Positions 11,750 to 39,929 of a stretch of DNA of 64,000 nt are shown piece after piece. The translations under genes were made by a program, and so were the position numbers. Positions within the stretch are counted from its first letter, which is position 1; every line of letters starts with the position of its first letter. A model generated the notes under the pieces. That model saw nothing but the letters and a program-made list of their open reading frames with translations. It was not told the DNA's origin and searched no databases. This DNA comes from Candidatus Aquidulcis sp. (GTDB lineage Bacteria > Chloroflexota > Anaerolineae > UBA4142). The DNA lies in NCBI GenBank assembly GCA_020723345.1, contig DYJA01000017.1, positions 12,381 through 76,380 of the forward strand. The letters run 5' to 3'.

Positions 11750-11850
11750 AACGCTGGAAAATCTGAAGGAGGCATGCAATAAGCGAAATAATGTCTGCTT
11801 GTCAAATACTAACAATTAGAGCCCAAAAAATTCTGAAAGGAGAAGAGAAA

Positions 11851-12642: not shown

Positions 12643-12759
12643 CCTTTGCCATAATTTCCCCACGGAGAGAGTGGAACACGGACGCATGGGGAAAGCAAGA
12701 AAATCATCCGTGTTCCCTTCGGTCGGTAGGGAAAAATCCGTGTGTGTAAATGGCAAAGG
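12643..12759 (+). promoter_or_regulatory. Nested hairpin in the leader of the Wzy-like gene
   Basis: CCTTTGCCAT at 12643-12652 pairs perfectly with ATGGCAAAGG at 12750-12759. Inside it GGAACACGGA at 12673-12682 pairs perfectly with TCCGTGTTCC at 12707-12716. A second TCCGTGT at 12737-12743 could compete for the same arm. The structure ends about 15 bases before the ribosome-binding site, so it could affect translation. It might instead be a dispersed repeat. Confidence 0.5.
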
Positions 12760-12789
12760 CATTGGCGATCCTTTCGGAGGGGAAGTCTA

Positions 12790-16005: not shown

Positions 16006-16065
16006 GATCGCAAGCCGGTTGGGGTGAACCGTTCGTCAACCGGAGCGGCGAAAGGAGGCAAGGCG

Positions 16066-17200: not shown

Positions 17201-17203
17201 AAA

Positions 17204-21069: not shown

Positions 21070-21684
21070 ATGTTGATCGACACAAAACTGCAAGAAGCAA
21101 GAATTGACAAGGATCAAACACGCAAACGCGCCAGCGCAACCGCCGCGCGACTTGGCGCCGCGCCGACAGCACCCCACGACAAACTCAAGGCGATCTTGGA
21201 AGAACGCGCGCGCGCGCTTGCGCAAGCCACCGAGACGCAGACCAGCGAGAGTATGTCGTTGGTCGTCTTTGCTTTGGCGAATGAAACCTACGGCATCGCC
21301 ATCGAATACGTGCGCGAAGTCCAGCCCCGGCGTGACATCACGCCCGTGCCTTGCGCACCGGAATTCGTCATCGGCGTGATCAACATTCGCGGCTCGATCT
21401 ACTCGGTGATTGACATTCGCTATTTCTTTGGCGTGCCAAAGAGGGAGAGCGCCGATTCGACCAAAGTGATCTTGGTTAGCGCGCTCGGGCTGGAAGTCGG
21501 CATTCTCGCCGACGATGTTAAGGGTGTGACGAGTATTCCGCTGCAAGAGATCAAGCCCCCGTTGGCGGCGCAAGGCGTGGCGAAAGAAGAATTCATCCAA
21601 GGGGTGACTAAAGAAATGTTGATCATCCTCAACTTGGAAGCCCTGTTGCGCGACGAGCGCATCGTCGTTCACGAAGAGGTATGA
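21070..21684 (+). CDS. cheW: CheW-like coupling protein with N-terminal extension
   Basis: The 204-residue protein has about 60 residues of charged, Ala/Arg-rich extension followed by a CheW domain: SLVVFALANETYGIAIEYVREVQPRRDITPVP and VIGVINIRGSIYSVIDIRYFFGVP. The last part, GVTKEMLIILNLEALLRDERI, completes the fold. It may bind a different receptor set from the short CheW at 17794. The next gene starts within its stop (ATGA at 21681), so they are coupled. The extension could be a tether to other proteins. Confidence 0.93.
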   Translation: MLIDTKLQEARIDKDQTRKRASATAARLGAAPTAPHDKLKAILEERARALAQATETQTSESMSLVVFALANETYGIAIEYVREVQPRRDITPVPCAPEFVIGVINIRGSIYSVIDIRYFFGVPKRESADSTKVILVSALGLEVGILADDVKGVTSIPLQEIKPPLAAQGVAKEEFIQGVTKEMLIILNLEALLRDERIVVHEEV

Positions 21685-22358
21685 GGTGTAGTATGCAAAT
21701 CACAAATCTAGTCGATCCACGCGGGATGGTTTACTCCAGCAACGTCTATTTGATTCGCGGTGATCGAAACGCAATCGAAGACGTGAATTGTCTGGTGGAT
21801 GTCGGCAACGACGCGAGTGTGATCGACCAAATCAAGAGAATGACGACACGCGTCGGCAAAAAAGCTATCGACCAGGTGATTTTGACGCACAGCCATTTCG
21901 ATCATACCGCGCTGTTGCCGAGAATTCGCGAACTCTTCAACCCGGTCGTGTATGCGTATTCGGCGTTCGCGGGCGCGGATGTCGTCTTGCGCGATGGACA
22001 AATTCTGCGCTGCGGCGACCGGGATGTGCAAGTCATCCACACCCCCGGTCACAGCGACGATTCGATCTGTCTTTATTGCGAGGCGGACGGCACGTTGTTC
22101 GTCGGAGATACGCCGGTGATCATCTGGTCGGCGAGCGGCGTCTACCAGGAATGTTTCGTCCGCGCGCTGGCGCGGCTCTGCGAAAGAGATGTGCGGACGA
22201 TCTATTTCGGACACGGCAATCCGGTGACGGTAGACGCGCAAACCGTCCTCGCCGAGTCGTTGAAGAATGTTCTGACCGCGCGGCTCAAAGAGTTAGCCAA
22301 TGGAAGAAACCCGGATGTGTCCAGCGCGGAAGAGCCAGCGCCGCTAATTGCGGCTTGA
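21681..22358 (+). CDS. Metallo-beta-lactamase-fold protein in the chemotaxis cluster
   Basis: The 225-residue protein has the metal-binding motif THSHFDH (HxHxDH), a second His in HTPGHSDDSICLY, an Asp in FVGDTPV, and a third His in YFGHGNPV, so a two-metal site is complete. MBL-fold proteins include hydrolases and diiron oxygen-binding proteins; one of the latter is tied to chemotaxis in spirochetes. The position between cheW and a receptor gene suggests a sensing role of that sort, but the substrate is unknown. It begins at the ATGA overlap; ATG 21693 is an alternative. The tail after residue 200 is low in structure. Confidence 0.82.
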   Translation: MRCSMQITNLVDPRGMVYSSNVYLIRGDRNAIEDVNCLVDVGNDASVIDQIKRMTTRVGKKAIDQVILTHSHFDHTALLPRIRELFNPVVYAYSAFAGADVVLRDGQILRCGDRDVQVIHTPGHSDDSICLYCEADGTLFVGDTPVIIWSASGVYQECFVRALARLCERDVRTIYFGHGNPVTVDAQTVLAESLKNVLTARLKELANGRNPDVSSAEEPAPLIAA

Positions 22359-22433: not shown

Positions 22434-22700
22434 ATGGAAATGTATCAGCGAGTTTTGGAATTGCTCACCGGTTACTTTAGCGACCGGACGGCGGCGGATG
22501 TGTTTCTTTCCCGTCAATGCAAGTTTCATCTCGAAAAACAACCCGCGCAGATTACGATGAACGATCTTTGGAACTTGGCGCACTGGGTGATGGTTTCCGG
22601 TACGTTATTGGTGGGCAAGGACAAAGCCATCGAAATGTCCGGCAAGATCCGCGACCTGCGCAAGGGGATGGGCGAGCCGACGGCGTCCACACATGCGTAG
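22434..22700 (+). CDS. Small helical protein of unknown function in the chemotaxis cluster
   Basis: The 88-residue protein is predicted mostly helical, with [15 protein letters not shown], an [11 protein letters not shown] stretch and [33 protein letters not shown]. No family is recognised. GATTGGAGG precedes ATG 22434, which fixes the start. It sits between the MBL-fold gene and the receptor gene and may be a receptor-associated or adaptor protein. Its short length and soluble character fit an adaptor better than an enzyme. Confidence 0.78.
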
Positions 22701-22755
22701 TGGAGCGCGAGTGGTCACGCGCTGGCGGCGCAGAATTCCAGGAGGTATTTCACCT

Positions 22756-24831
22756 ATGGCGGAAAATGTCAGTCTTGGCAGAAAGAGTAATTTCATTCCA
22801 ACGGCGAGCGGCAGCGCCAAACTTGGGTCATTGCAATTCAAGGTCGTGTTCTGGGCTGGCGGAGCGCTCCTGCTCGCCGAAGCGATCTTGATCGCTTTTG
22901 TCGTGCTGACTGTTCCAGACCGCGCGCCGGACTGGACGCTGAAGCTGATCGCAGTGACATCTGCCCTGTTCGTTGCGATTGTATTTGGCGGCTGGCGTAT
23001 GGCGGCGCAAATAACGGAACCGCTCGGCAGAATGATCAAAGCCGTGAACGCGATGGCGCAGGGCGATTGTGCGGCGCAAGTGGATTCGGCAAGTAAGGAC
23101 GAAATCGGTCAACTTGCGGAAGGGATATGTACTTTGGCAAACCGGCTATCGGCTCAAGCGCAACAGGAGCAGGCATCCAAGCAAGCCCTGCTTAGCGAAT
23201 GCAACCTGTTGCATACGATTCTGGATGCGTTGCCCGACCGTGTGTATGCCAAAGACCTGGAGAGCCGCTACATCTTGAGCAACCAGGCGCACTGGCGATT
23301 GGTTGGCGCGCGCACCATCGATCAAGTTGTCGGCAAGACGATTTTCGATCTGTTCCCGAAAGAAATGGCAGACCAATACTATGCCGATGATCAAGCCACG
23401 ATGCGCTCGGGCGAGCCATTGTTAAACCGAGAAGAAGTAACGATGGAACATGATACCGGCAAGCGCGTTTGGAATTTGACAAGCAAGATTCCCTTTCGCG
23501 ACAGCGCAGGCAAAGTGATCGGACTCATCGGGATCAGCCGCGACATCAGCGAACGGAAAGAGGCAGAAGCCACGTTGGCGATAGAGCGTAATTTGCTGCA
23601 CGCGCTCCTCGACACGATTCCCGACGCGGTCACTTTTAAGGATGCCGAGTCGCGCTATTTGCGCGTCAGCAAAGCCAAGGCGTTGAAGCACGGCTTGAAG
23701 GATCCATCGGAAGCGGTTGGCAAGACAGATCGCGATTTCTTTGGCGAGGAGCATTTCCGCGCGGGGCGCGCTGGCGAACTAGAAATTATGCGCACCGGCG
23801 AAGCGATCCTTAACGTCGAAGAAAAGCAAAAATTGGCGGACGGATCGGACGCCTGGGTTTTGACGAGCAAGATGCCTCTGTGCGATGCTGATGGCAAGAT
23901 CGTTGGGACCTATGTGGTCAGCCGTACCATTACCAAGCAAAAACAATTTGAAGAGTCGCTCGAGCGGGAACGCGATGGCTTGAAAGCCGCGCTCAGACAC
24001 CTAGAAGAGAGCGCGGTCAAGATGACCGGCGCATCTGCCGAAATTCTCGCCTCGTCCACGCAAATGGCGGCGACGACGCGCGAGCAAGCGAGCGCGGTGA
24101 ATCAGGTGACGAGTACGGTCACGGAGATCAAAGTATCGGCGGAACAAGTGGCGCAGCGCGCGCAAAGCGTCGCCGAGCAAGCAAGCCGCGCGAGTGAAGC
24201 GGCAAAACACGGCACCGCAGCGGTCGGCGCGGCGACGGCAGGCATGGAAGATATTCGCGCCAAAGTCGAAGCGATTGCGGCGAACATCCTCGCGCTGTCG
24301 GAACAGACTCAGCAGATCGGCGAAATCATCGACACGGTGACCGACATCGCCGGTCAATCGAACATCCTCGCGCTGAACGCGGCGATTGAAGCCGCGCGAG
24401 CGGGCGAAGCGGGCAAGGGCTTTCGCGTCGTGGCGGACGAAGTGCGTTCGCTGGCGGGGCAATCGCGGCAAGCGGCGCAGCAAGTCAAAGTGATCTTGGG
24501 CGATATTCAAAAAGCGACGAACTTGGCGGTGATGGCGACGGAGCAAGGGACGAAAGGCGTGCAGGCGGGCAGCGAGCAAATAAGTCGGACGGCGCAGACG
24601 ATTCAAGAATTGGCGCGCGTGGTCGAGCAATCGGCGCAATCGGCGCAACAGATCGTCGCGGGCGTAGAGCAACAGACGATTGGGTTGGATCAGATCGAGA
24701 TCGGGATGAACGACATCAATCAAGCCGCGCAGCAAAGCGCGGCGGGCGCGGCGCAATCGCAAAAAGCGGCGCAAGATTTGAATGATCTGAGCGCGCAGTT
24801 GAAGCAAGTCGTCGTGCAGTACAAGATGTGA
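22756..24831 (+). CDS. Methyl-accepting chemotaxis protein with HAMP and two PAS domains
   Basis: The 691-residue receptor has two membrane helices near the N terminus (about 31-55 and 65-85) with only a short loop between them, so there is no sizeable outside sensor domain. A HAMP domain ([19 protein letters not shown]) and two PAS domains (about 145-275 and 280-405) follow, the second PAS ending in [12 protein letters not shown]. The signalling hairpin tip reads [24 protein letters not shown], the standard kinase-contact region. Sensing is therefore probably cytoplasmic, perhaps redox or oxygen. AGGAGG at 22740-22745 precedes ATG 22756. It is the only receptor gene in the window. Confidence 0.94.
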
Positions 24832-24944: not shown

Positions 24945-27308
24945 ATGTTCACGTTCGATGACGACATCATGCGCCAACTGCGCGCGACCTTCAAGATCGA
25001 AGCGGCAGAGCATATCCAGGCGATGAATCGCATCCTGCTCGCGCTGGAGCAAAATCCAGGAGGCGAAGAACGCGCGGAATTGCTCGAAGAAATTTTTCGC
25101 GAAGCCCACTCACTCAAAGGCGCGGCGGGCGCGGCGGACCTGGGCGAAGTCGAGGCGACGGCGCACCGGTTGGAGAATACGTTCGGCGCGGCGCGGTCGG
25201 GCAAGATCAACCTGACGCGCGAAGTCTGCGATGTGCTTTACGCCGGGATTGACGCGGTGAGTACCGTTGTCGACGCGGCGCTGGAGGAACGACCGCACGA
25301 ATTGGATCTGCCGGGGCTTTACGCTAGTTTGGACGCGCTGGAGCAAGGACAGGTGGTACCTCTCGTCAAGCCAACGCAAACGCAACTCAGTCCGGCGCAA
25401 CAGAAAACGGAACCGTCGAGCGCGCCGCCGGTTGCTCCTGCCGCGACAACACCAGCCGGGATGGCAGTGCGCGCGTTCGATCAAGACGCGAAGGCGAAAA
25501 CGTACAAAGGCGAAGAGCGTCGCAAGAACGCGGGTTTCGGTCCCGCGGGTGAAGAGACGATCCGCGTCGCTACCGGCAAAATCGATACGTTGATGACGCA
25601 AGCGGGCGAATTGCTCGTCGCCGGGCTCAAGATCGATCGGCGGTTGAATCAAGTTGGCGAGGTCGCGCACTTGATCGAAGAATGGAACCGCGAGTGGCTC
25701 CAAGCGCGGTCGACCTACAGCGATTTGCTGCGCGATCCGGCTCACGAGGAACTGCATCCGCTGATCAAGTTGTTGGATCAAAGCCAGGATCGCCTTCGCG
25801 CTTTGGCGATGCAGATCGGCGAACTCAAGCGCGGTTTCTCCAGCGACGCGTTACACCTTTCGCGCGTGACGAACGACATGGGCGAAGGCGTGATGCAAGT
25901 CCGGATGCTGCCGGTCGCGACGGTCTTCGATGCGTTCCCGCGCTTGGTGCGCGATCTCGCGCGCGAACTCGGCAAAGAAGTCGAGTTGCTCACCGAGGGC
26001 GCGGAAACCGAACTGGATCGCAAGGTGCTGGAGGAGATCAAAGACCCCTTGATTCACGTGTTGCGAAATTGCGTGGATCACGGCATCGAAAAACCCGAAG
26101 ACCGTGTCAACATCGGCAAGCCGCGCTACGGCACGCTGACGGTCAAAGCATTTCAGAAAGGCAACAATATCGTTCTCGAAGTTGCGGATGACGGGGCGGG
26201 CATCAATCGCGATAAAGTGAAACAGGTCGCCGTGAAAGCCGGACTAGTTTCAGTCGACGACGCGCAAACGCTGAGCGACGACGAAACGTTGCGCTTGATT
26301 TTCGCGCCCGGACTCAGCACCAGTTCTGTGATCACCGGCGTCTCGGGTCGCGGCGTTGGGATGGATGTCGTCCGAAAAAATGTCGAAGCGCTGCAAGGGC
26401 AGGTCGATGTTGTTTCCACGTTGGGCAAAGGCACGACGATTACGTTGACGCTGCCGCTGACGTTGGCGACGACCCAGGAATTGCTTGTCCAGGTCGGCGA
26501 TCAAACGTACGGCATTCCGCTCTCCGCCGTCGAACGAATCGAGCGCATCACCTCCAAAGCGATTGCGGCGGTGGCAGGGCGACAGGCAATCGTGGTGGAT
26601 GATGAACCGGTTGCGCTGGTGCGGCTCGCCGATATTTTGGAACGCCCCAGCGCCGAACGAAAAACAGGCGGCGATGGCAAAGTGCCGGTGGTGATTTTCA
26701 AATCCAGCAAAAAGCGCGTCGCGTTTCAGGTGGATGCGGTCGTCGGACAGCAAGAGACCGTCGTCAAGGGGCTTGGCAAACAACTCGCGCGCGTCCGCAA
26801 CGTCGCGGGCGTGACGATCCTGGGTTCGGGCAAAGTCATTCTGACTTTGAATCCGGCGGATTTGATCAAGTCGGTGCGCGGCAGCGAAAGCAAGATCGCT
26901 CAAGCGGCGCGCGGGAATGGCAATGGCAAAAGAGAAGTGAAACAGCACACGCTGCTCGTCGTGGACGATTCTCTGAGCACGCGGACTTTGGAAAAGAACA
27001 TTCTGGAAACGGCGGGCTATAAGGTAATTACCGCCACCGATGGTTTGGAGGCGTGGAACCTCCTGACCTCCAATGGCGGCTGCGATTTGATTGTGACCGA
27101 TATTCTGATGCCGCGCATGACCGGTTTGGAATTGACCGCGTCGGTGAAAAGGGATCCCACGTTGAGGAAAATTCCCGTCATCTTGGTCACATCGCTCGAT
27201 TCACGCGCGGACAAAGAGCGCGGCATCGAAGTGGGCGCGGATGCGTACATCGTCAAAAGCAATTTCGATCAAAGCAACTTGTTGCAAACCGTGGCGCAGT
27301 TGATTTAA
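24945..27308 (+). CDS. cheA: CheA chemotaxis histidine kinase with C-terminal receiver
   Basis: The 787-residue kinase has an Hpt domain with the phosphorylated His55 in REAHSLKGAA, a variable linker, a dimerisation region, an ATPase domain (N box HVLRNCVDHGIE, EVADDGAGIN, GRGVGMDVVRKNV), a CheW-like regulatory domain (TYGIPLSAVERIERI) and a C-terminal receiver domain (TLLVVDDSLSTRTL, VTDILMPRMTG). No P2 domain for CheY binding is evident. The added receiver could act as a phosphate sink or feedback element. It is the central kinase feeding CheB and the three receiver proteins downstream and, by inference, the receiver on ArlH. Confidence 0.96.
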   Translation: MFTFDDDIMRQLRATFKIEAAEHIQAMNRILLALEQNPGGEERAELLEEIFREAHSLKGAAGAADLGEVEATAHRLENTFGAARSGKINLTREVCDVLYAGIDAVSTVVDAALEERPHELDLPGLYASLDALEQGQVVPLVKPTQTQLSPAQQKTEPSSAPPVAPAATTPAGMAVRAFDQDAKAKTYKGEERRKNAGFGPAGEETIRVATGKIDTLMTQAGELLVAGLKIDRRLNQVGEVAHLIEEWNREWLQARSTYSDLLRDPAHEELHPLIKLLDQSQDRLRALAMQIGELKRGFSSDALHLSRVTNDMGEGVMQVRMLPVATVFDAFPRLVRDLARELGKEVELLTEGAETELDRKVLEEIKDPLIHVLRNCVDHGIEKPEDRVNIGKPRYGTLTVKAFQKGNNIVLEVADDGAGINRDKVKQVAVKAGLVSVDDAQTLSDDETLRLIFAPGLSTSSVITGVSGRGVGMDVVRKNVEALQGQVDVVSTLGKGTTITLTLPLTLATTQELLVQVGDQTYGIPLSAVERIERITSKAIAAVAGRQAIVVDDEPVALVRLADILERPSAERKTGGDGKVPVVIFKSSKKRVAFQVDAVVGQQETVVKGLGKQLARVRNVAGVTILGSGKVILTLNPADLIKSVRGSESKIAQAARGNGNGKREVKQHTLLVVDDSLSTRTLEKNILETAGYKVITATDGLEAWNLLTSNGGCDLIVTDILMPRMTGLELTASVKRDPTLRKIPVILVTSLDSRADKERGIEVGADAYIVKSNFDQSNLLQTVAQLI

Positions 27309-27395: not shown

Positions 27396-28448
27396 TTGAT
27401 TCGAGTACTCATCGTAGATGATTCGACCGTTCTCCGGCAAAGTACGCGCTTTATTCTAGAGAGTGACGCCGAGATTCAAGTCGTCGGCGAGGCGAGCAAT
27501 GGTGTGGACGCGATCACGATGGTCGAGCAATTGTGCCCGAATGTTGTCACGATGGACATTCGAATGCCCAAGATGGGCGGACTGGACGCAATCCGCGAAA
27601 TTATGGTGGCGCATCCGGTCCCGATTGTCGTCGTTACCGGCGTCGATCTCGATCAAGAAGCGGATCTTTCGACGCAAGCGACGCGGCTCGGCGCGGTCTC
27701 GGTCGTGAAACGACCAACGGGAATGTCCGCACAAGGTTACCAGCAGTTCGCCGGGAAATTGATCGAACGAGTGAAGTTGATGAGCGCGGTCAAAGTGATT
27801 CGCCGGATGAAGATGAGTGCAGCGGTTTCACCAAGCGATCTCCTTGCCGGCGCCAAAGCATTGCCCGCGCAAAAAATCGGAATTATCGCGATTGGCTCGT
27901 CGACCGGCGGACCGGCGGCGTTACACAAGATTCTGAGCGCGCTGCCGAGCGATCTGCCGGTGCCCATCGTGATCGTCCAACACATTTCGTTTGGTTTTGT
28001 AGAAGGATTGGCGTCGTGGCTGAACGACGCTTCGCCGCTGAAAGTTCAAGTCGGGCGCGCGGGCGAAAAAATCGCGCCCGGCCACGCTTACATCGCGCCG
28101 GACGATCGGCACATGCTCGTCGATGGTGTCGGGCATATCGCGCTCAGCCCTGCCGCGCCGATGGGCGGACATCGTCCGGCGGTGACGCCGTTGTTCGAAT
28201 CGGCGGCGCGCGCGTTTGGCGGCGCGGCAGTCGGCGTGATTCTCACCGGCATGGGCGCGGACGGCGCGGTCGGAATGAAAACGCTGCGCGACGCCGGGGC
28301 GATCACGCTTGCCCAAGACGAAGCGAGTTGCGTCGTCTTTGGAATGCCAAAGGAAGCGATGGCTTTGGGCGCGGTGCAGCGCGTCGCGCCGCTTGAAAAC
28401 ATCGCTCGAATTCTGCAAGAACTTGTGACAATAGAGGTGTCCGTATGA
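27396..28448 (+). CDS. cheB: CheB chemoreceptor methylesterase
   Basis: The 350-residue enzyme has a receiver domain (LIVDDSTVLRQ, Asp54 in TMDIRMPKMGG) and a methylesterase domain with the catalytic Ser169 in AIGSSTGGPAALHK, the His in IVQHISFGF, and GMGADGAVGMK near the end. It removes methyl groups placed by CheR. It starts with TTG at 27396 following GCGGAG. The next gene begins in its stop codon (ATGA at 28445). CheR and CheB together give a standard adaptation loop; no cheC or cheD was seen. Confidence 0.95.
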   Translation: MIRVLIVDDSTVLRQSTRFILESDAEIQVVGEASNGVDAITMVEQLCPNVVTMDIRMPKMGGLDAIREIMVAHPVPIVVVTGVDLDQEADLSTQATRLGAVSVVKRPTGMSAQGYQQFAGKLIERVKLMSAVKVIRRMKMSAAVSPSDLLAGAKALPAQKIGIIAIGSSTGGPAALHKILSALPSDLPVPIVIVQHISFGFVEGLASWLNDASPLKVQVGRAGEKIAPGHAYIAPDDRHMLVDGVGHIALSPAAPMGGHRPAVTPLFESAARAFGGAAVGVILTGMGADGAVGMKTLRDAGAITLAQDEASCVVFGMPKEAMALGAVQRVAPLENIARILQELVTIEVSV

Positions 28449-28915
28449 TTGCGTCGAAAACATCATCGTCGGAGATTCAAGTTGATTCGCGCGACAAGAT
28501 TCGCGTGCTGATCGTCGACGATTCGCCGACCGCGCGCGAAGCGATTGCCGCGATTCTCACTCGCGATCCAGAAATTCAAATTGTCGGTCAAGCCGCCGAT
28601 GGCGCGGAGGCAGTCGCGCTGGCGGCGCAACTCAAGCCGGATGTCATCACGATGGATATTACCATGCCCAAGATGAATGGCTATGAAGCGACCAAACAAA
28701 TTATGGCGCATTGTCCGACTCCGATCGTCGTCGTGACGAGTGTAACGCAGCAAGAGATGGTTCATCAGGGCTTGAATGTATTGTTGGCAGGCGCGCTCGA
28801 AATCGTTCAAAAGCCCGGCAATCTCACCGGGCAAAGTATGGAAACGATCCAAGCCGAGTTGATCGCCAAAGTGAAAGCCCTTTCCAAGATCAAATATTCG
28901 CCGGTCAATCAGTGA
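28445..28915 (+). CDS. Single-domain response regulator with short extensions (CheY candidate)
   Basis: The 156-residue protein is a receiver domain with about 18 extra residues at the N terminus: VLIVDDSPTAREAI, phosphorylation site Asp71 in TMDITMPKMNGYEA, VTSVTQQ in place of the usual Thr/Ser region, and Lys in VQKPGN. The sequence is close to the receiver of CheB rather than a classical CheY. It overlaps cheB by four bases. It may be a CheY working on the motor or a phosphate sink. A CACTG-type repeat follows its stop. Confidence 0.88.
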   Translation: MIASKTSSSEIQVDSRDKIRVLIVDDSPTAREAIAAILTRDPEIQIVGQAADGAEAVALAAQLKPDVITMDITMPKMNGYEATKQIMAHCPTPIVVVTSVTQQEMVHQGLNVLLAGALEIVQKPGNLTGQSMETIQAELIAKVKALSKIKYSPVNQ

Positions 28916-28985
28916 ACAGTAAACAGTGAACAGTATGCCGTGAGTAGTATTCAGCGCGGACGGTCTACTGTTGACTGTGGACTGA
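28909..28985. repeat. CAGTGAACAG-type repeat after the receiver gene
   Basis: The words CAGTGAACAG and AACAGTAAACAG repeat here, and the right half carries ACTGTTGACTGTGGACTG. The same words occur at 29843-29913 inside the hybrid kinase and, in the other orientation, at 4965-5021. Confidence 0.6.
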
Positions 28986-28999
28986 TGAGAGAAACATCT

Positions 29000-30973
29000 A
29001 TGTCCAAGAAAATCCTCCTCGTCGAAGACAGTCGAACCGAAGCGCTCCGCACGCAGTTGATTTTGGAACGCGCGGGCTATCAGATCACGCTCGCCGCGAA
29101 TGGCAAAGAAGGATTGTTCAAAGCGGCGATGGAAAAGCCGGACGTGATCCTGCTCGATACGTTGATGCCGCAGATGGGCGGCTTTGAGACGGTCGGGCGG
29201 CTCAAACTCGATCCGCAGACGCACAACATTCCCGTGCTCATTCTCGCGGCAGAAGACGAACGCGCGAACATGCCATCGGGAGATGCGATTGCGGCTGTTA
29301 TGCGCAAGCCCTTCGATCCGACGCGGTTGCTGAACAAACTCGACGAGATCACCAAGGGGAACGGCGGCGATCTTCACGCCGAGCTGCTCCGTGCGCAACA
29401 CCAAGTCGAAGAGGCGAAGAAAAGCCGCACCGATTTCCTGGCGAACATGAGCCACGAACTGCGGACGCCGCTGCACGAAATTATGGGCATGACCGATTTG
29501 CTGCTCGGCACCGAATTGACGAGCGAGCAGCAGGGTTTCATCAACACAACGCGCGCTTCGTCGAACGCGCTCTTGAGTTTGATCGGCGACGTGATCGAAT
29601 TTTCCGAAATCGAAGTCGGGCAACTGGGTTTGGAAGAAAAAGAATTCGATCTGGCGGAACCGATCGAGCGCGCGATTGAAATCGCGATGCCGTACGCGAC
29701 CGACAAGGGACTCGACTTGTCCACGCGCATTGCGGCGCAAATCCCAAAGCGCGTGGTCGGCGACGCAAACCGCGTGCGTCAGGTGCTGACAAATCTGGTG
29801 ACGAACGCGATCAAGTTCACAGAGCGCGGCGGCGTGGTGTTGTCAGTAAACAGTGAACAGTCAGCAGTTAACAGTGATACGGATACTGTTCACAGTTCAC
29901 TCCTCACTGTTCGCTTTGCAGTGCGCGACACCGGCATCGGCATTCCAGCAGATCGCCGCGAGATCATCTTCGAGCCGTTCCAACAAGTCGATTCGTCGGC
30001 GACGCGCCGGTTCGGCGGGATGGGGATGGGACTCGCGCTCGCCAAACAACTTGTAACATTGATGGGCGGAAAAATCTGGGCGGACAGTCAGCCCGGACAA
30101 GGCAGCACGTTCCATTTCACCGCGCAGTTCAAACGCGCGACGGTCGAACCACGTCCGGCGGCTGCCGCGTCCGCCGGCAAGGCGGCGCAGAATTTGGAAA
30201 TCTTGCTCGCGGAAGATAGCCCGACGAACCAACTCATCGCCGTTGCGAATCTCAAAAAAGCCGGGCACGCGGTTACCGTCGCGAACAACGGGCGGATCGC
30301 CGTACAGCTGTTTGAAGAGCGCGGGCGACGCGGCGCGCGTTCGTTCTTCGATTTGATTTTGATGGACGTCGCGATGCCGGAGATGGACGGGCTGGAAGCG
30401 ACGAAGGCGATCCGCGAGAAAGAAAAAGCGCTCGGCGGACACACGCCGATTATTGCGATGACCGCGTTCACGACGAAAGAATATCGCGACAAGTGCGCGG
30501 CAGCGGGGATGGACGCATACATTTCCAAACCAGTCCGCATCGACGAACTGACCAAAACATTCGAACCGTTTTTGTCGCGCGAGAGCGAAACGCCGACAGT
30601 CGCGCCGGTCGCGCTGCAAGACGCGCTGGAGATCGTCGGCGGCGATGTCGATCTGTTGAAGAGCGCGGTCGCGCTGTCGTTGCGCGAAGTGACCGGACAA
30701 TTCGAAGAATTGAAGCAAGCCCTCGCGCAGCAAAATCCCAAAGCGGTCGAAGCCAGCGCGCATCGTTTGAAAGGGATCATGGGGAATCTCGGCGCGACTG
30801 CCGCGCGCGATATCGCGCAGCGTCTCGAAACGATGGGTGAGCAGGGCAACCTCGCGGGGGGACCAGCGGCGGCGCAAGAACTGGATGGCGCGATCGCGCG
30901 CGTGATCGCGTTCTTCTCCGATCCGGACTGGGAAAAACGCGCGCGCGCAAGCCAAGGAGGAGCCGATGGGTAA
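29000..30973 (+). CDS. Hybrid sensor kinase: receiver, HisKA, ATPase, receiver, Hpt
   Basis: The 657-residue protein begins with a receiver domain (Asp53 in LLDTLMPQMGG), followed by HisKA with His152 in FLANMSHELRTPLHE, an ATPase domain (NLVTNAIKFT, VRDTGIGIP, GGMGMGLALA), a second receiver (ILMDVAMPEMDG is close to it) and an Hpt domain with ASAHRLKGIMG. There is no membrane helix, so the input is probably through the N-terminal receiver. About 20 residues (NSEQSAVNSDTDTVHSSLLT) are inserted in the ATPase domain by a repeat at 29843-29913 without breaking the frame. ATG 29000 is the chosen start. It overlaps the next receiver gene by eight bases. Confidence 0.92.
   Translation: MSKKILLVEDSRTEALRTQLILERAGYQITLAANGKEGLFKAAMEKPDVILLDTLMPQMGGFETVGRLKLDPQTHNIPVLILAAEDERANMPSGDAIAAVMRKPFDPTRLLNKLDEITKGNGGDLHAELLRAQHQVEEAKKSRTDFLANMSHELRTPLHEIMGMTDLLLGTELTSEQQGFINTTRASSNALLSLIGDVIEFSEIEVGQLGLEEKEFDLAEPIERAIEIAMPYATDKGLDLSTRIAAQIPKRVVGDANRVRQVLTNLVTNAIKFTERGGVVLSVNSEQSAVNSDTDTVHSSLLTVRFAVRDTGIGIPADRREIIFEPFQQVDSSATRRFGGMGMGLALAKQLVTLMGGKIWADSQPGQGSTFHFTAQFKRATVEPRPAAAASAGKAAQNLEILLAEDSPTNQLIAVANLKKAGHAVTVANNGRIAVQLFEERGRRGARSFFDLILMDVAMPEMDGLEATKAIREKEKALGGHTPIIAMTAFTTKEYRDKCAAAGMDAYISKPVRIDELTKTFEPFLSRESETPTVAPVALQDALEIVGGDVDLLKSAVALSLREVTGQFEELKQALAQQNPKAVEASAHRLKGIMGNLGATAARDIAQRLETMGEQGNLAGGPAAAQELDGAIARVIAFFSDPDWEKRARASQGGADG
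29843..29913. repeat. CAGTGAACAG-type repeat inside the hybrid kinase gene
   Basis: The stretch holds CAGTAAACAG, TGAACAG, AACAGTGATAC and then ACTGTTCACAG and TTCACTCCTCACTG, an inverted-repeat set like the intergenic copy at 28909. It codes for about 20 Ser/Asn/Val-rich residues between two strands of the ATPase domain and keeps the frame. Confidence 0.7.
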
Positions 30974-31394
30974 AGCGCGGATACTTTGCGTCGACGACGA
31001 CATCGCGCAATTGACCGTGATGGCGGGCATTCTCAAAACCGATGGCTATGAAGTCGAGACGGCGAAGAGCGGAACGGACGGAATAGCCAAAGCCCGCGAA
31101 TGGAAACCGGGCTTGATCATTTTGGACATTATGATGCCGGGGATGGATGGCTATGAAGTGTGCCGCCATTTGAAACGGGATCCGGAAACCGAGCATATCG
31201 CCGTGTTGATGTTGACGGCAAAGGGCGGCGTGGATGAGCCGGTCGATCACGCGTACGAACTCGCGGGCAAAGTCAAGGATCGCTTGAAAGGATTCGATTC
31301 CGGCGCGATAGAGTTTTTGACCAAGCCGGTTAAAGCGAAAGATTTGTTGCAACGCGTCAAGGCGATTCTTTGGGCTTCGGGCTTGCCGGTGTGA
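30966..31394 (+). CDS. Single-domain response regulator (CheY-like)
   Basis: The 142-residue receiver domain has RILCVDDDIAQL, Asp54 in ILDIMMPGMDGYEV, MLTAKGG with the switch Thr and Lys in FLTKPVKAKD, so all key residues are present. It overlaps the hybrid kinase gene by eight bases (ATGGGTAA). Being a complete receiver with no output domain, it is a candidate CheY or a target of the hybrid kinase. It is the last gene before the class A promoter of arlH. Confidence 0.9.
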   Translation: MGKARILCVDDDIAQLTVMAGILKTDGYEVETAKSGTDGIAKAREWKPGLIILDIMMPGMDGYEVCRHLKRDPETEHIAVLMLTAKGGVDEPVDHAYELAGKVKDRLKGFDSGAIEFLTKPVKAKDLLQRVKAILWASGLPV

Positions 31395-31533: not shown

Positions 31534-32604
31534 ATGCCAGCCAAAGTCAAGAAAATTCTGGTCATTGAAAATGATCCTCAATTGATCGAACTGATCAAAT
31601 ATCCTTTGCAGGAGGAAGGATATACGATTGTTTCTGCGCTGGATGGTCCCGATGGCTTGACCAAGTCGCGCCGCGAGCAGCCCACGCTCGTCATGGTGGA
31701 TTTCAAACTCCCCACGATGAAAGGGAATGAGGTCTGCAAGAGTATTCGCAAAGATCCCGCGACGAGCCACGAACGCATCATCATGATCGCGGACGAAAGC
31801 CAGTTGGAGCAACTGGAGATCGGACCGGGTTCCAGCATTGACGACTTTCTCATCAAGCCCTTCAATCCGGTCGAATTGATCACCAAGATCAAACCGCTGA
31901 TGACGACGGATGATGAGGCGTCGGCAAAACTCATCTCGACGGGCAACGGCGATCTGGATAACAAAATGGGCGGCGGCGTCCCGGTGGGATCGCTCACGTT
32001 GATCGAAGGGGATTCGGGCGCGGGCAAGTCGGTGCTGTCGCAGCAAATGATGTACGGTTGTCTCGTCGACGGTTACCGGCTGTCGCTCTTCACCAGCGAA
32101 AACAACGTCAAGAGTCTGGTCAAGCAAATGCGTAGTTTGAACATGGACATTTTGGATTACTTGCTGCTCGACAAACTGCGCATCTTTCCGCTCGAAACTT
32201 CGCGGTTGGGCAAAGACGCGCCGCCCGAAATTATGAAGGCGATGCGCCGCGAAAAAGGGCGCGAGATGGTTTTCATCGACTCGCTCACCTCGTCTATCCC
32301 CGCGTCGTCGGATCGCGAAGTGCTGGGATTCTTTGAAGAAGGCAAACGGATGTGCGGCGACGGTTCGACGGTCGTCGTCATCATTCACTCGCACGGCTTG
32401 ACGCGCGAACTGCTCACGCGGATCCGCTCGCTGTGCGACGCGCACCTGCAACTCCGCACCGAAGAAGTCGGCAACAAACTGGTCAAGACCTTGGAAGTGA
32501 CCAAGGTGCGCGGCGCGGAGCAAACGACCGGCAACATCGTCAGTTTTGAAGTCGAGCCCGGTTGGGGCATTCGCGTCATCCCGATCAACAAGGTGAAAGG
32601 ATAA
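31534..32604 (+). CDS. arlH: ArlH-like archaellum ATPase-scaffold with N-terminal receiver domain
   Basis: The 356-residue protein joins a receiver domain (about 5-120) to an ArlH/RecA-like domain (about 130-356). The receiver has IENDP, Asp56 in MVDFKLPTMKG and Lys108 in FLIKPFNP. The switch Thr/Ser position reads Ala in MIADES, so the output may be altered. The ArlH part begins with LISTGNGDLDNKMGG, has Walker A GDSGAGKS at 159-166 and Walker B MVFIDS around 245-250, and ends near FEVEPGWGIRVIPI. In archaea ArlH binds ArlI and acts in switching, but archaeal ArlH has no receiver. The fusion suggests direct input from CheA or the hybrid kinase. Confidence 0.92.
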   Translation: MPAKVKKILVIENDPQLIELIKYPLQEEGYTIVSALDGPDGLTKSRREQPTLVMVDFKLPTMKGNEVCKSIRKDPATSHERIIMIADESQLEQLEIGPGSSIDDFLIKPFNPVELITKIKPLMTTDDEASAKLISTGNGDLDNKMGGGVPVGSLTLIEGDSGAGKSVLSQQMMYGCLVDGYRLSLFTSENNVKSLVKQMRSLNMDILDYLLLDKLRIFPLETSRLGKDAPPEIMKAMRREKGREMVFIDSLTSSIPASSDREVLGFFEEGKRMCGDGSTVVVIIHSHGLTRELLTRIRSLCDAHLQLRTEEVGNKLVKTLEVTKVRGAEQTTGNIVSFEVEPGWGIRVIPINKVKG

Positions 32605-32609
32605 GTTGG

Positions 32610-34292
32610 GTGGCAACCTTTCGACTGCCTTTTGCGAATGAAAAAACATCCGCCGATTTGGGACCAGAAGCGCGGGCGAAAATTCGCGCGCGCCTCGCGC
32701 CCAAGTTGCAGGAAGCGTGTGCCGAAAGCGAAATGCTGTTCGATTATGTGTGCCGTTTGCCGTTGGATGAGATCGGGGTGCCGGACTATTACCCCAAGAT
32801 CACGCGCGATCAACAGTACCTCGAGCGCCGCAATCTGATCTATCCAATCGAAGGTGGTCTGTTCGTTCACATTTATCCCAACGACAAAGCGGAACGCGAT
32901 ATCTACGTTCCCATCGAACCGCACTTGACGGTCGATCTGAGTGAAATCATCCCCAAAGTCGAAACCAAGTTGCTCAATTTCGTCGAAAAGATTGGCGCGG
33001 AGGAAACGGACGCAGGGAAACGGACGGAATTGCTCAAAGCGGTTGACGCCAGCGCGAGCACCAACGGCGCGACGAACAAGATTCACGTCACGCTGCGGGA
33101 AATGGACGCGCTGCGCTACATTCTCGCGCGCGACAAAGTTGGGTTCGGTCCCCTCGCGCCGATGCTGCTCGACCGACACATCGAAGATATTTCGTGCAGC
33201 GGGGTCGGTCCGATCTTCATCGAGCACAAGGTTTTCAAATCCATCGAAGCCGCGATTACGTTTGTGACGGAAGACGAACTCGATCAATTCGTGATCTGGC
33301 TCGGCGAGTGGATCAAGCGTCCCGTCACCGTCCGCAATCCCATCGTCGACGCGACGCTGCCCGATGGCTCGCGCATCAACATCGTCTACGGCACCGACGT
33401 TTCTAAACGCGGCAGCAATTTTACCATCCGCAAGTTCGCCGAAGTCCCCACCAGCATTATGGAATTGATCGATTTTGGGACGCTCGATTACATGATGGCA
33501 GCGTATCTTTCTTTTGTGCTGGAGGAAGGACTGAACGTGTTCGTCGTCGGCGCGACGGCGTCGGGCAAGACGACGACGATGAACGCGATCACGACGTTCA
33601 TTCGCCCGGACAAAAAAATCGTCAGCATCGAAGACACGCCGGAACTTCAGGTGCCGCACAAGAATTGGATCCGCGAGACGACGCGCGGTTCGTCCAAAGA
33701 AAACACCGGCGCTGAAGTCGGCATGTTCGATCTGTTGAAAGCCGCCCTGCGTCAACGCCCCGACCGGATCATCGTCGGCGAGATTCGCGGCGAAGAAGGC
33801 GCGATCGCGTTTCAAGCGATGCAGACCGGTCACGGCGTCATGTCGACCTTTCACGCGGCGTCGGTGGAAAGACTGGTGCAGCGTCTTTCGGGCAGCCCGA
33901 TCAATATTCCCAAGACGTACATCGACAATCTGGATTGCGTGCTGATTCAGCAAGCGGTCAAAGTGCCGGGCAAGGGCATGGCGCGCCGCGTGACCAGCAT
34001 CAACGAAATCGTCGGGTACGATCCGTCGTCGGAAAGTTTTTCTTTCGTCGAAGCGTTTCGCTGGAATCCGGCGACCGATACGTTCGATTTTCCCGGCTTT
34101 ATGAACAGTTTCATTCTGGAAGAAAAGATTTCGCCGCGGCGCGGCATTCCACCGTTCAAGCGCAAAGTGATCTACACCGAATTGAAACGCCGCGCCAAAA
34201 TTTTCCAGCGACTCCATCAAGAAAGGAAGCTGAAGGATTTCTATGAAGTCTTCGCCGTCCTCGCTGAAGCGCAGCGTCAAAAACTACTTTGA
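32610..34292 (+). CDS. arlI: ArlI-like archaellum motor ATPase
   Basis: The 560-residue product is a type IV pilus/archaellum secretion ATPase close to ArlI. The N-terminal part ends near 300. The motor domain has Walker A GATASGKTT at 314-322, the Asp box EDTPEL at 341-346, Walker B RIIVGEIRGEE around 386-396, and the His box TGHGVMSTFHA near 407-417. ArlI powers both assembly and rotation of the archaellum. GTG 32610 with AAAGGA upstream is the start; an upstream ATG at 32562 would overlap arlH. It overlaps arlJ by 50 bases, so translation is tightly linked. Confidence 0.95.
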   Translation: MATFRLPFANEKTSADLGPEARAKIRARLAPKLQEACAESEMLFDYVCRLPLDEIGVPDYYPKITRDQQYLERRNLIYPIEGGLFVHIYPNDKAERDIYVPIEPHLTVDLSEIIPKVETKLLNFVEKIGAEETDAGKRTELLKAVDASASTNGATNKIHVTLREMDALRYILARDKVGFGPLAPMLLDRHIEDISCSGVGPIFIEHKVFKSIEAAITFVTEDELDQFVIWLGEWIKRPVTVRNPIVDATLPDGSRINIVYGTDVSKRGSNFTIRKFAEVPTSIMELIDFGTLDYMMAAYLSFVLEEGLNVFVVGATASGKTTTMNAITTFIRPDKKIVSIEDTPELQVPHKNWIRETTRGSSKENTGAEVGMFDLLKAALRQRPDRIIVGEIRGEEGAIAFQAMQTGHGVMSTFHAASVERLVQRLSGSPINIPKTYIDNLDCVLIQQAVKVPGKGMARRVTSINEIVGYDPSSESFSFVEAFRWNPATDTFDFPGFMNSFILEEKISPRRGIPPFKRKVIYTELKRRAKIFQRLHQERKLKDFYEVFAVLAEAQRQKLL

Positions 34293-35727
34293 AGAGATTT
34301 CCAGTTTCGATCTCTTTTATCAGTTGACGTACATGACCGCGACTTCGACGGCGGGAATTTCGCGCGCCCGTACGTTTCAGTTGGCGCGCGAATTGCCCGC
34401 GGCGCCCGCGCAGTACTTTCGCAGCATTCACGAGGTCGCGGAGAACTTGCGCTACAACTATCCCGACGCAGTACGTTTGGTGGGCGAACAAGTCAAGTCG
34501 CCGCACACCAAGACCTTCTTGCTCCGGCTTTCGGACGCGCTCCGCTCCGGCGAACCGCTCCCCGCGTTCTTGAAACGCGAAGCCCAAGTGCAAGGCGAGA
34601 ATTATCAAAACGACTATCTCAAAAGTTTGGAGAGCATGAAAAAGTGGACCGACGCGTACGCCGCCGTCGCCGTGTCCGCGTCGCTGATCGTGATCATCAA
34701 CATGGTGATGACGATGATTTACAGCATCAGTCCAACGTTGATGGCGGCGATGATCTTTGTATCGGTTGCGTCCACGTTCGGCGTCGCCTGGCTGATCTTT
34801 CGCGCGTCGCCGCAGGAAACCAAGTTCGTTCAGTTGGAGCGCGGCTCCAAAATGCAGCAACTCAGTCGCCGCCTCTTTCTAATTTTGGTGCCTGCCATGT
34901 TCGTGGTCTGCACGCTGCTCGCAGCGCTCGGCTTGGACAAAGGGTGGCTGTTGATCTTGGCGGGGCTATTCCTCGCGCCGCTTGGGTACATTAGTGGGAA
35001 AGCGGATCAGATTACCACCGCCAAAGACGCGGAGATCAGTTCATTCCTGCGTTCGCTGGGCGGCAACGCCACCTCGCGCGGCACGACATTGAAAGACGCG
35101 CTCGCCAGCATGAAGCGCGATTCGTTCCCGACGCTTCAGCCGGATATCCGTATGTTGGATTTGCGTCTCAAATCGTTCGGCAAGCCCGAACTGTGTTGGC
35201 GCACCTTTGGCACCGAAACCGGCAGCAAAATCGCCGAACAAGCCGTCGGCATTTTCTACGAAGCGATCAACCTGGGCGGCGATCCGGAGCGCGCCGGGAA
35301 TCTCACGAGTGAGTTTTCGATGAAGACGGCGATGTTGCGCGCGCAGCGCATTGGCATCGCGGCGACTTTTTCGTGGCTCACCATCGCGATGCACGTCGTG
35401 ATGGCGGGGCTGATGATCTTCCTGATCGGCATTCTGGAACAATTCGGCATCAAGTTGGAAGAAGCCATGGCGTCGATGGGCAGCAGCACCGAGGTGTTAG
35501 GCACGATGGGGCTGCAAAGTATGTTTTCCTTCAGTTCGAGCCAAGTGCATTTTTTGTACGGGCTTACCGTCGGGCTGATCATTCTGCTCTCGGTCATCAA
35601 TGCCTTTGCCATCGTCGCCAGTCAGGGCACGCATTTTGTCAAAATGACTTTTTATCTCGCCATTTTGCTGGTTCTCTCCGGTATTTGTTTTCTAACCGTT
35701 CCTTCGATGGTCAAGTGGGTGATGTGA
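34243..35727 (+). CDS. arlJ: ArlJ-like archaellum membrane platform protein
   Basis: The 494-residue protein is the platform protein of the TadC/T2SF family: a cytoplasmic N-terminal region with an ELPAAPAQYF-type motif, membrane helices near 140-190, 206-250, 368-398 and two more at the C-terminal end, and two soluble helical domains between them. In archaea it is the only polytopic membrane part of the motor and is bound by ArlI. It begins 50 bases inside arlI. The first ATG is well placed after GAAGGA. The gene after it begins one base after the stop. Confidence 0.92.
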   Translation: MKSSPSSLKRSVKNYFEEISSFDLFYQLTYMTATSTAGISRARTFQLARELPAAPAQYFRSIHEVAENLRYNYPDAVRLVGEQVKSPHTKTFLLRLSDALRSGEPLPAFLKREAQVQGENYQNDYLKSLESMKKWTDAYAAVAVSASLIVIINMVMTMIYSISPTLMAAMIFVSVASTFGVAWLIFRASPQETKFVQLERGSKMQQLSRRLFLILVPAMFVVCTLLAALGLDKGWLLILAGLFLAPLGYISGKADQITTAKDAEISSFLRSLGGNATSRGTTLKDALASMKRDSFPTLQPDIRMLDLRLKSFGKPELCWRTFGTETGSKIAEQAVGIFYEAINLGGDPERAGNLTSEFSMKTAMLRAQRIGIAATFSWLTIAMHVVMAGLMIFLIGILEQFGIKLEEAMASMGSSTEVLGTMGLQSMFSFSSSQVHFLYGLTVGLIILLSVINAFAIVASQGTHFVKMTFYLAILLVLSGICFLTVPSMVKWVM

Positions 35728-37503: not shown

Positions 37504-38883
37504 ATGACTCTGCAACGAGGCGCTCCAGAATCCAAACCCACACCGGCTGGACGCGACGAGCCGAGTAACGCGCCGGGATTGCCCTTTTCGCCGCCGCCGC
37601 CCGCGCGCACTTTTTCGCGCGGCGTCCTGATCCTCTGGCTCGTCGTGATCGGCATGGCGATCTTTTTTCTGCCGCTCTATTTATTCGCGCTGACGATTCG
37701 CGAAGACGCCAAAGCGATCGAGACAGAAATCGCCTCGATTCGCGTTTCCCTCACGAATGTGCCCACGCCTCCCCCCGACATCGCCAGTCAGTTGACTCCA
37801 CTCGCGCAAGCGCAGCGCCAGATCAATCAACTCGCTCAAGTGTATCCAACGCTCGTCGCGCCGCGCTCCGATTTGCCCGCGATCATGGCGGCGATCAACA
37901 ACTACAATCCGAATGACATCACGCTCACTTCGGTCGCGTGGGCAGGCAATCGCATGACGCTCACCGGTCGCGCCACGCGCGACGATGTCGTGCTCGGCTA
38001 CGTCCGCAATCTCGAACAGTCCAATCTTTTCAATCGCGTCACGTTGGAATCCGCGCAAGTCGTCGCGACGATCACGCCAACTTTGACGATCACGCCGACG
38101 GCGACCGCGCCGTGGACGCTGACGCCGACGTTTCCGGTTCCGACGATCACGCTCGCGCCGACAATCACCGGCGTACCTTCGCCAACCTCGACCTATACGC
38201 CATCGCCCACCGGCACAGCTACAGCGACATCCACTCCGACGAATACACCCACCGTCACACCAACCAGCACGCCGACATTAACGCGCACGCCCACTGCCAC
38301 TCCCGATCTGCGCGATGCGTACGAACCCGATGACGTTATTCCGCGCGCGATTGCCATCGGCGAAACGCAGCAGCACAATTTCTTCCCGACCGGAGATATC
38401 GATCAAGCCAGTTTCGCGGTCAAAGCGAATCGTTATTACCAGGTGCTCACCTCCGATCTCGCGCTCGGCGTGGATACGATTGTGACCGTCACATTGGGCA
38501 GCAACATTGCGGCTTGGAACGACGATTACGCGCCCGGCACCGGCAATTTTGCTTCGGCGGTCTGTTTTCAAGCGACCCAGGATGGCACCGCGGTAGCGTT
38601 GACGGTCAACGCAACTTCGTTCTACGGCGCGGAGCGAACCTACAAGATCAAAGTGAGCGAGACTTCCAAACTGCTCACGCCGCCCTGCCCCGGCGCAACA
38701 TCGCGCGCGCCGTCAGTGCCGCGACTTGCGAGCGCGTCTTCATCGTCCGCGTCCGCGATTTTGCCAATCGCGTGGATCCGCTCAGACACGAATTGGACGC
38801 GCTCAGACAATGCGCCAGCGTGGCGCGCACCGATGCCCTATCGGTTCGTGATCACTTTGGATCTCAAGGTGTTCCCGCCATGA
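37504..38883 (+). CDS. PilN-like membrane protein with Thr/Pro linker and PPC-like domain
   Basis: The 459-residue protein has a membrane helix at about 42-64, a PilN-like periplasmic domain at about 65-180 (ADLPAI-type start is close to DLPAIMAAINNYNPNDITLTSVAW, then LEQSNLFNRVTLESAQV), a Thr/Pro-rich linker (about 185-275), and a beta-rich domain beginning DAYEPDDVIPRAIAIGETQQHNF, which resembles the pre-peptidase C-terminal domain. The last 65 residues are Ser/Pro/Arg-rich and poorly ordered, and may reflect a frameshift or a poorly conserved end. PilN links the pilus motor to the outside in type IV pili. Its gene overlaps the PilO-like one by four bases. Confidence 0.8.
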   Translation: MTLQRGAPESKPTPAGRDEPSNAPGLPFSPPPPARTFSRGVLILWLVVIGMAIFFLPLYLFALTIREDAKAIETEIASIRVSLTNVPTPPPDIASQLTPLAQAQRQINQLAQVYPTLVAPRSDLPAIMAAINNYNPNDITLTSVAWAGNRMTLTGRATRDDVVLGYVRNLEQSNLFNRVTLESAQVVATITPTLTITPTATAPWTLTPTFPVPTITLAPTITGVPSPTSTYTPSPTGTATATSTPTNTPTVTPTSTPTLTRTPTATPDLRDAYEPDDVIPRAIAIGETQQHNFFPTGDIDQASFAVKANRYYQVLTSDLALGVDTIVTVTLGSNIAAWNDDYAPGTGNFASAVCFQATQDGTAVALTVNATSFYGAERTYKIKVSETSKLLTPPCPGATSRAPSVPRLASASSSSASAILPIAWIRSDTNWTRSDNAPAWRAPMPYRFVITLDLKVFPP

Positions 38884-39929
38884 TCAAGCGGCTGAAAAGT
38901 ATCCAGGAATTTATCCAAACGAATCTTTACACCTTGTTGGCGTTGCTCTTCGTCGTCATTCTCACCGCCGCATATATTTTCTTTTACGTCTCCGCGATCG
39001 ATCCGGGGCTGACGAACCGGAGCCGGATCGAAACGCAATTGGACGACGCGCGTCGACAGTTGATCAACTCGCGCAGTCGTCAAGAGGACCCGCCGGAGGT
39101 TTGGCAGACGCGCGTCGCGGACGCGCGCGCGACGCTGACGAATTCGACAAACGCCTTTCTCACCGGCGATCAAAGCACGCAGGCGGTCGATCTGCTTTAT
39201 CAATACGCGCGCGCGAGCGGCGTCACGATCATCGATCTGCAAGTGCCGCCCACACCGACGCCGCTGCCGACGCTAACCTGGACGCCGACGCGCTTGCCCA
39301 CGCCGCTGCCGAGTCCGACTTCGCAAACTAGAACTGCTGCGACGCAGCCGACTCAAGCGCAACCCACGCCAACCCCTCCACCTCCACCAACTGCCACACG
39401 AATGCAAGCAATTCCCGGTCAATCGCAAGGCGCGTTTTTCTACGTCCGACCGCTGCGGCTGCGCGCGCGCGGCACGTCGCGCCAGTTGGTTGATTTTGCG
39501 TCGCGTCTGAAAGAAGCAAACACGACCGGCGTCGTCGTCAACAGTTTCAATATTTTGGGTGGTGAAGGAACGCCGCAAGCCACTTTGACGATGGACGTTT
39601 CGCTTTACGTCTTGTACAGCGCGAGCGATGCGCCGGGGACGCGCGCCCCAACATCGCCGCCGCCGCCCGTTTACCCGACGCCGGTCATTCCTACCGTCAC
39701 GCCATCGGCAACCTGGATCTTTGTTACGCTAACTCCGCCGTCGACGCCGACATGGACGCTGACGCCCAGTCCAACACCCAGGTACATCGTCCACGTCGTC
39801 CAACCCGGCGACACTTTGTTTTCGCTCGCGCGTCGTTACAATACGTCTGTGGAAGCGATCATGTCGCTCAATCGATTGTCGAACACCAACATTCGCGTTG
39901 GACAACAGTTGATGATCCCGGCTCCATAA
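38880..39929 (+). CDS. PilO-like membrane protein with C-terminal LysM domain
   Basis: The 349-residue protein has an N-terminal membrane helix (LYTLLALLFVVILTAAYIFFYV), a coiled stretch, and a PilO-like split domain (DLLYQYARASGVTIIDLQVP and FFYVRPLRLRARGTSRQLVDFASRL then VNSFNILGG). Pro/Thr-rich linkers follow. The C-terminal 45 residues are a LysM domain: YIVHVVQPGDTLFSLARRYNTSVEAIMSLNRL through QLMIPAP, which binds peptidoglycan. No PilO that I know carries LysM, so this may tie the motor to the wall. It starts in the stop codon of the PilN-like gene (ATGA). Confidence 0.83.
   Translation: MIKRLKSIQEFIQTNLYTLLALLFVVILTAAYIFFYVSAIDPGLTNRSRIETQLDDARRQLINSRSRQEDPPEVWQTRVADARATLTNSTNAFLTGDQSTQAVDLLYQYARASGVTIIDLQVPPTPTPLPTLTWTPTRLPTPLPSPTSQTRTAATQPTQAQPTPTPPPPPTATRMQAIPGQSQGAFFYVRPLRLRARGTSRQLVDFASRLKEANTTGVVVNSFNILGGEGTPQATLTMDVSLYVLYSASDAPGTRAPTSPPPPVYPTPVIPTVTPSATWIFVTLTPPSTPTWTLTPSPTPRYIVHVVQPGDTLFSLARRYNTSVEAIMSLNRLSNTNIRVGQQLMIPAP

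Follow-up and report, generated by a model that had tools for sequence, protein, structure and literature searches.

The window that we analysed (the whole stretch of 64,000 nucleotides from a Candidatus Aquidulcis sp. contig, DYJA01000017.1) encodes a single 356-amino-acid protein at 31534-32604 in which a degenerate receiver (residues 8-120) is joined to an intact ArlH/KaiC ATPase (residues 126-355). We refer to this protein as REC-ArlH. Our tentative proposal, which we rate a little below an even chance, is that a phosphorelay charges a neighbouring stand-alone receiver (the insert-receiver), and that the charged receiver, by docking on the ArlH pseudo-receiver, controls the ArlH-ArlI motor.

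A receiver domain fused to ArlH

The protein and its parts map as follows.

31534-32604, plus strand: REC-ArlH, pseudo-receiver fused to ArlH, 356 aa (ORF, Pfam, NCBIfam, AlphaFold2)
31549-31899, plus strand: pseudo-receiver domain, residues 6-122 (E12 N13 D14, D56, A86, K108; short alpha4, 88-93)
31909-32598, plus strand: ArlH/KaiC ATPase domain, residues 126-355 (Pfam, NCBIfam, structure)
32008-32034, plus strand: Walker A GDSGAGKSV, residues 159-167 (alignment)

Pfam placed Response_reg (PF00072) on residues 8-120 (E 5e-18; 65.7 bits, cut-off 30.2) and the KaiC ATPase family on residues 135-351 (E 4e-21; 75.9 bits, cut-off 26.6). The NCBIfam model for FlaH, NF004723, matched residues 126-355 with 247.9 bits, above its curated cut-off of 194; the equivalog NF052589 scored 199.4 bits, below its cut-off of 215. 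The AlphaFold2 model (mean pLDDT 85, and above 90 across most of the receiver) has the complete (beta-alpha)5 fold in its receiver part and a KaiC fold in its ATPase part, and its nearest PDB structures are FlaH of Sulfolobus and Methanocaldococcus (4yds and 4wia), with a TM of 0.89 on the target for 4yds. The profile match and the (beta-alpha)5 fold identify the first part as a receiver domain. The second part is identified as ArlH by the FlaH/ArlH profile, the FlaH fold, a Walker A motif that is close to invariant across the family alignment, and a gene position directly before arlI, together with arlI and arlJ. Profiles and model thus agree with the earlier note, which had read a receiver and ArlH from one frame with the right coordinates and length, and had correctly placed the receiver residues IEND (E12 N13 D14), D56 and K108.

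An internal start yielding an unfused ArlH was rejected, as the candidate ATG (M124) is not conserved in relatives. Chance, or an assembly or sequencing artefact, is ruled out by the presence of full-length REC-ArlH in 14 other genomes.

The fusion gene lies in an archaellum-chemotaxis cluster

Archaella are established in Chloroflexota (PMC12488501), and the REC-ArlH gene belongs to an operon-like run that constitutes a Chloroflexota archaellum-chemotaxis cluster, in a host genome assembly of 6.3 Mb. Starting from arlB (11791), the run continues with a Wzy/TPR protein, a candidate ArlC/D/E, arlG-like and arlF-like genes, CheW, CheR and HD-GYP; then a CheW, an MBL-fold protein, an MCP, CheA, CheB, CheY and a hybrid kinase with Hpt; and finally the stand-alone receiver, REC-ArlH, ArlI, ArlJ, a prepilin peptidase, PilN and PilO-LysM.

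11791-12444, plus strand: ArlB archaellin
16024-16749, plus strand: candidate ArlC/D/E-like protein, coiled coil and small C-terminal domain (assigned from position and appearance only)
16742-17710, plus strand: two genes, arlG-/arlF-like in placement and shape only
18254-19849, plus strand: CheR-TPR
22693-24831, plus strand: chemoreceptor (MCP; by sequence)
24945-27308, plus strand: CheA with C-terminal receiver
27396-28448, plus strand: CheB-like (by sequence)
28445-28915, plus strand: CheY-type receiver of the che cluster
28940-30973, plus strand: hybrid histidine kinase REC-HisKA-HATPase-REC-Hpt
30671-30907, plus strand: Hpt domain within the hybrid kinase, homologous to a free Hpt protein beside REC-ArlH in genomes G708 and G732
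30966-31394, plus strand: stand-alone canonical receiver, the proposed phosphorylated partner; 14 residues inserted between beta4 and beta5 make its alpha4 longer
32562-34292, plus strand: ArlI motor ATPase (Pfam, NCBIfam)
34243-35727, plus strand: ArlJ platform protein (Pfam, NCBIfam)

The true start of ArlI is probably near 32610, its relatives being ~560 aa. Neither the candidate ArlC/D/E protein nor its relatives had a Pfam match, and the ArlD/E domain PF04659 gave no Pfam match in 17 genomes; arlCDE homologues have been reported via other models (PMC12488501). The Wzy/O-antigen-ligase-like gene (12742-15909), between arlB and the remaining cluster, encodes a large membrane protein with TPR repeats. 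The MBL-fold protein (21681-22358, and 12772-13455 in locus L135) is conserved within the che cluster and is possibly a chemotaxis sensor. The PilO-like protein with a LysM domain (38514-39929) adjoins the archaellum cluster; this arrangement is rare, with 3 organisms described (PMC13319060).

Distribution and origin of the fusion

We surveyed Chloroflexota genome samples drawn from the phylum, the class and the window's order. In the phylum sample, ArlH exceeded the cut-off in 11 of 400 genomes, and only the window's own genome had the receiver. Eight of 20 genomes of the window's order encode full-length REC-ArlH, the other seven proteins at 74-85% identity. The class sample contained REC-ArlH in 14 genomes and a different receiver on ArlH in two more (G440 and G466), and a further named scan added L104. 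All carriers of REC-ArlH are metagenome assemblies of Anaerolineae. The search for other such fusions that the earlier note had called for thus yielded 14 further Anaerolineae genomes. That note had also counted separate receiver and ArlH proteins in close relatives as evidence against its reading; we did not find this arrangement in the same order, and did find it in more distant Anaerolineae. No report of a REC-ArlH fusion was found in the open-access papers searched.

The 55 Chloroflexota ArlH domains in our tree comprise 15 with this receiver, two with the other receiver and 38 unfused; G486 has both forms in tandem, REC-ArlH and then an unfused ArlH. The receiver-domain tree unites the 15 ArlH receivers (99/98) and, separately, the 15 insert-receivers (95/94); the receiver of G440/G466 falls elsewhere. 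The ArlH-domain tree places the 15 REC-ArlH in two spots, requiring at least three label changes. One fusion followed by loss, or an exchange of domains, would fit both trees. A single fusion event for all ArlH receivers is excluded by the position of the G440/G466 receiver, and by this tree the fusion of a different receiver to ArlH in these two genomes was an independent event. Their fusion proteins (L077 7295-8389; L078 4156-5250) keep DD, D and K and have Ala in place of Thr.

Two long ArlH frames, in G350 (377 aa) and G305 (298 aa), were rejected as fusions; the additional upstream sequence is in frame and contains no receiver. At many unfused loci, including L111, L107 and L125, an arlF-like gene of 370-430 aa has a C-terminal addition of ~200 residues.

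The fused receiver is a pseudo-receiver retained under selection

We counted active-site residues across the 15 REC-ArlH members, window included. The first acid is Glu in all 15, and the second acid is replaced in all 15 by Asn, Ser, Gly or Pro (N13 in the window protein); E12 and D14 are invariant in the family alignment. Asp56, the phospho-acceptor, is retained in 12 of 15 (Glu in G407, Gly in G423 and G486), as is Lys108 (Gln in G423, Arg in G486 and L104). At the Thr/Ser switch, 14 of 15 have Ala, Val or Met, with Thr only in L104; the Ala reported for the window by the earlier note is real (A86). With N13 and A86, the window protein lacks the second acid and the Thr of the canonical phosphorylatable set (DD, D, T, K). 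A pseudo-receiver is defined as a receiver without any one of five active-site residues, and the second acid is a direct metal ligand of receivers (PMC12632262); by this definition the fused receiver is a pseudo-receiver.

Its dN/dS is 0.06-0.07, about as low as that of the ArlH domain; dS was saturated for some pairs, and the closer pairs L065/L066 and L071/L072 also gave 0.06-0.07. Such values (about 0.06) indicate strong purifying selection on the receiver domain. An active site that is degenerate, yet in a domain with low dN/dS, indicates that the fused receiver performs a function for which phosphorylation of this domain is not generally required.

The earlier note had envisaged that CheA or the hybrid kinase phosphorylates the fused receiver on Asp56, and that this receiver acts directly on ArlH. 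The frequent retention of Asp56 and Lys108 would favour such a scheme, as would the kinase genes adjoining REC-ArlH and the invariant E12 and D14, of which D14 might partly stand in for the lost metal ligand. We nevertheless consider it unlikely, given that the second acid is lost throughout the family and the Thr/Ser in all but one member, and that the gene is maintained in G423, G486 and G407 even though Asp56 has become Gly or Glu there.

A canonical receiver is the constant neighbour of REC-ArlH

Beside REC-ArlH there is constantly a separate, canonical receiver, at 30966-31394 in the window, where it adjoins the hybrid kinase with the Hpt domain. This insert-receiver and its relatives share an insertion of ~14 residues relative to the receiver beside arlH in G556, and all five active-site residues are intact in 15 of 15. 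In AlphaFold models without error maps, alpha4 is 17 residues long in the insert-receiver versus 6 in REC-ArlH. Most loci have the insert-receiver no more than 1.4 kb upstream of REC-ArlH, and in several genomes the two genes are 4-18 nt apart or overlap by 13 nt; in G414 it is found on another contig, at the end of a che cluster. Of 396 class genomes, 15 gave at least 199 bits with the insert-receiver profile, and REC-ArlH is encoded in 13 of these 15. A further carrier, G410, gave 171 bits, and its insert-receiver has, by eye, a second, degenerate receiver-like domain.

Three genomes have two insert-receivers per locus, the same three whose REC-ArlH lost Lys108 (two of these lost Asp56 as well); with such small numbers, the coincidence of duplication and Lys108 loss is suggestive only. 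Insert-receiver paralogues also adjoin hybrid kinases away from archaellum genes (L136, L137, L138), which excludes an insert-receiver exclusive to archaellum loci.

By analogy with FrzS, the pseudo-receiver might instead be a docking or positioning module that recruits ArlH to the pole, to the chemosensory array or to the motor, with no phosphorylated partner regulating it. In FrzS, the pseudo-receiver serves type IV pili as a polar beacon (PMC12632262), the archaella of Litorilinea aerophila are polar (PMC12488501), and the active site of a positioning module would be free to drift. We find this unlikely, as it leaves unexplained both the constant neighbouring canonical receiver and the free Hpt described below.

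The signal may come from a kinase-Hpt-receiver relay

Four REC-ArlH genomes that are 92-96% complete (G526, G565, G708, G732) yielded neither CheA nor CheW. These carriers exclude a strict dependence of the architecture on CheA; an additional search, run without a positive control, gave the same outcome. In G708 and G732, a free Hpt protein, the insert-receiver and REC-ArlH are encoded by consecutive genes; this Hpt protein has 135 aa and, within the window, is most closely related to the Hpt end of the hybrid kinase (28940). Because an Hpt precedes the insert-receiver in these two genomes without CheA/CheW, a kinase-Hpt-receiver relay is likely to be the common denominator of the carriers, with CheA added in the window's order.

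CheF (CheF-arch domain, PF04283) was found in 0 of 32 archaellated genomes, with positive archaeal controls, making a direct signalling link to ArlH plausible. To that extent the idea of a phosphorelay acting directly on ArlH holds up; its other half, with the fused receiver as general phosphate acceptor, fits poorly with a second acid lost in every member.

Unfused Anaerolineae loci (L110 14433-16118, L111, L132 and others) often have an FHA-GAF-histidine kinase directly after arlJ, possibly another signalling input to the motor.

Receivers also adjoin unfused ArlH

In G556 and G456, a receiver gene lies shortly upstream of an arlH that is not fused, and in G642 a REC-Hpt gene overlaps an arlH. 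With the separate fusion in G440/G466, these arrangements indicate that the linkage of receiver and ArlH arose more than once. At 20 related unfused loci there is no adjacent receiver, so the link is dispensable there. The ArlH of G642 (L081 1802-3339) is a divergent paralogue without an adjacent ArlI; the REC-Hpt gene overlaps it on the upstream side, and a p35729-like gene and PilN come after it.

Over a length of 183 residues, the G556 archaellin shows full identity to the PDB sequence common to 9i5h, 9sie and 9sii, of which 9SIE/9SII is the L. aerophila structure; on this identity, G556 is L. aerophila or a very near relative. Its ArlH is unfused, and a canonical receiver gene lies 149 bp upstream, between arlF and arlH (L074 9875-10264 and 8998-9726); neither CheA nor CheW was found in this genome. 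Swimming L. aerophila cells occasionally switch direction (PMC12488501); this cultured, motile relative therefore offers a test system with the unfused arrangement, in which the role of the receiver beside arlH can be probed.

A proposed route from receiver to motor

ArlH regulates ArlI (PMC12024892, PMC12488501). It docks on ArlI and binds the cytoplasmic ring; it is also the leading candidate for an assembly-rotation switch, and its phosphorylation lowers its affinity for ArlI (PMC12024892). In the mechanism that we propose, the hybrid kinase/Hpt phosphorelay, together with CheA where present, would phosphorylate the stand-alone insert-receiver. The phosphorylated insert-receiver would then pair with the ArlH-borne pseudo-receiver, in the manner of the receiver/pseudo-receiver pairing of PleD. 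Pairing would alter the assembly of the ArlH ring or the hold of ArlH on ArlI, and the altered ArlH would set the motor state, that is, assembly versus rotation or the direction of rotation. The pseudo-receiver on ArlH would thus take the role that archaeal CheF plays on ArlCDE.

The degenerate site of every REC-ArlH set against the intact quintet of every insert-receiver argues for docking, and the alpha4 lengths of the AlphaFold models, which lack error maps, would be complementary. Asp56, on the other hand, is kept more often than a fully dead receiver requires, and the insert-receiver paralogues away from the archaellum and the unfused loci lacking an adjacent receiver also count against docking. 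Precedents are the pairing in PleD, the control of KaiC by the KaiA pseudo-receiver, and FrzS in type IV pilus control (PMC12632262).

Finally, the receiver might alter ArlH oligomerisation or sense a small molecule (quinone, nucleotide), as is the case for the KaiA/CikA pseudo-receivers of the KaiC clock. ArlH is homologous to KaiC, and KaiC proteins have receiver-like regulators in KaiA and KaiA3 (PMC12632262, PMC11372060); no ligand site was identified, and we regard this reading as very unlikely.

Comparison with known systems

Archaella in bacteria were shown to work only in 2025, in a paper that notes the absence of CheF and suggests that signals may reach the motor through some other component (PMC12488501). 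Concrete candidates for this missing link are REC-ArlH and the receiver genes adjacent to arlH. As a tentative generalisation, which has some way to go to an even chance, bacterial archaella may have replaced the CheF route, with phosphorylated receivers acting on ArlH through a built-in pseudo-receiver or an adjacent receiver and, in some lineages without CheA, a general phosphorelay steering a rotary motor. A natural signalling input on ArlH, if true, would show that ArlH serves in control as well as in assembly (PMC12024892).

REC-ArlH resembles known ArlH/FlaH (4yds, 4wia; NF004723) in its KaiC-type ATPase, its gene directly before arlI-arlJ and its intact Walker A; known ArlH, however, has ~230 aa and no extra domain, whereas REC-ArlH adds ~125 residues of receiver fold in front. 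The L. aerophila locus (PMC12488501; G556/L074) has the same machinery and a receiver gene adjoining arlH, but there the receiver is separate and canonical, ArlH is unfused, and CheA/CheW were not found. Like the archaeal CheF-ArlCDE route (PMC9126983), the proposed link would run from phosphorylated CheY-like receivers to the archaellum motor; unlike it, CheF is absent and the connection would be made at ArlH via the pseudo-receiver. The receiver and pseudo-receiver of PleD, FrzS and KaiA (PMC12632262) likewise illustrate the pseudo-receiver as a protein-interaction or regulatory module, and KaiA and FrzS extend the likeness to a KaiC homologue and to type IV pili, but in none of them is the module joined to part of a rotary motor.
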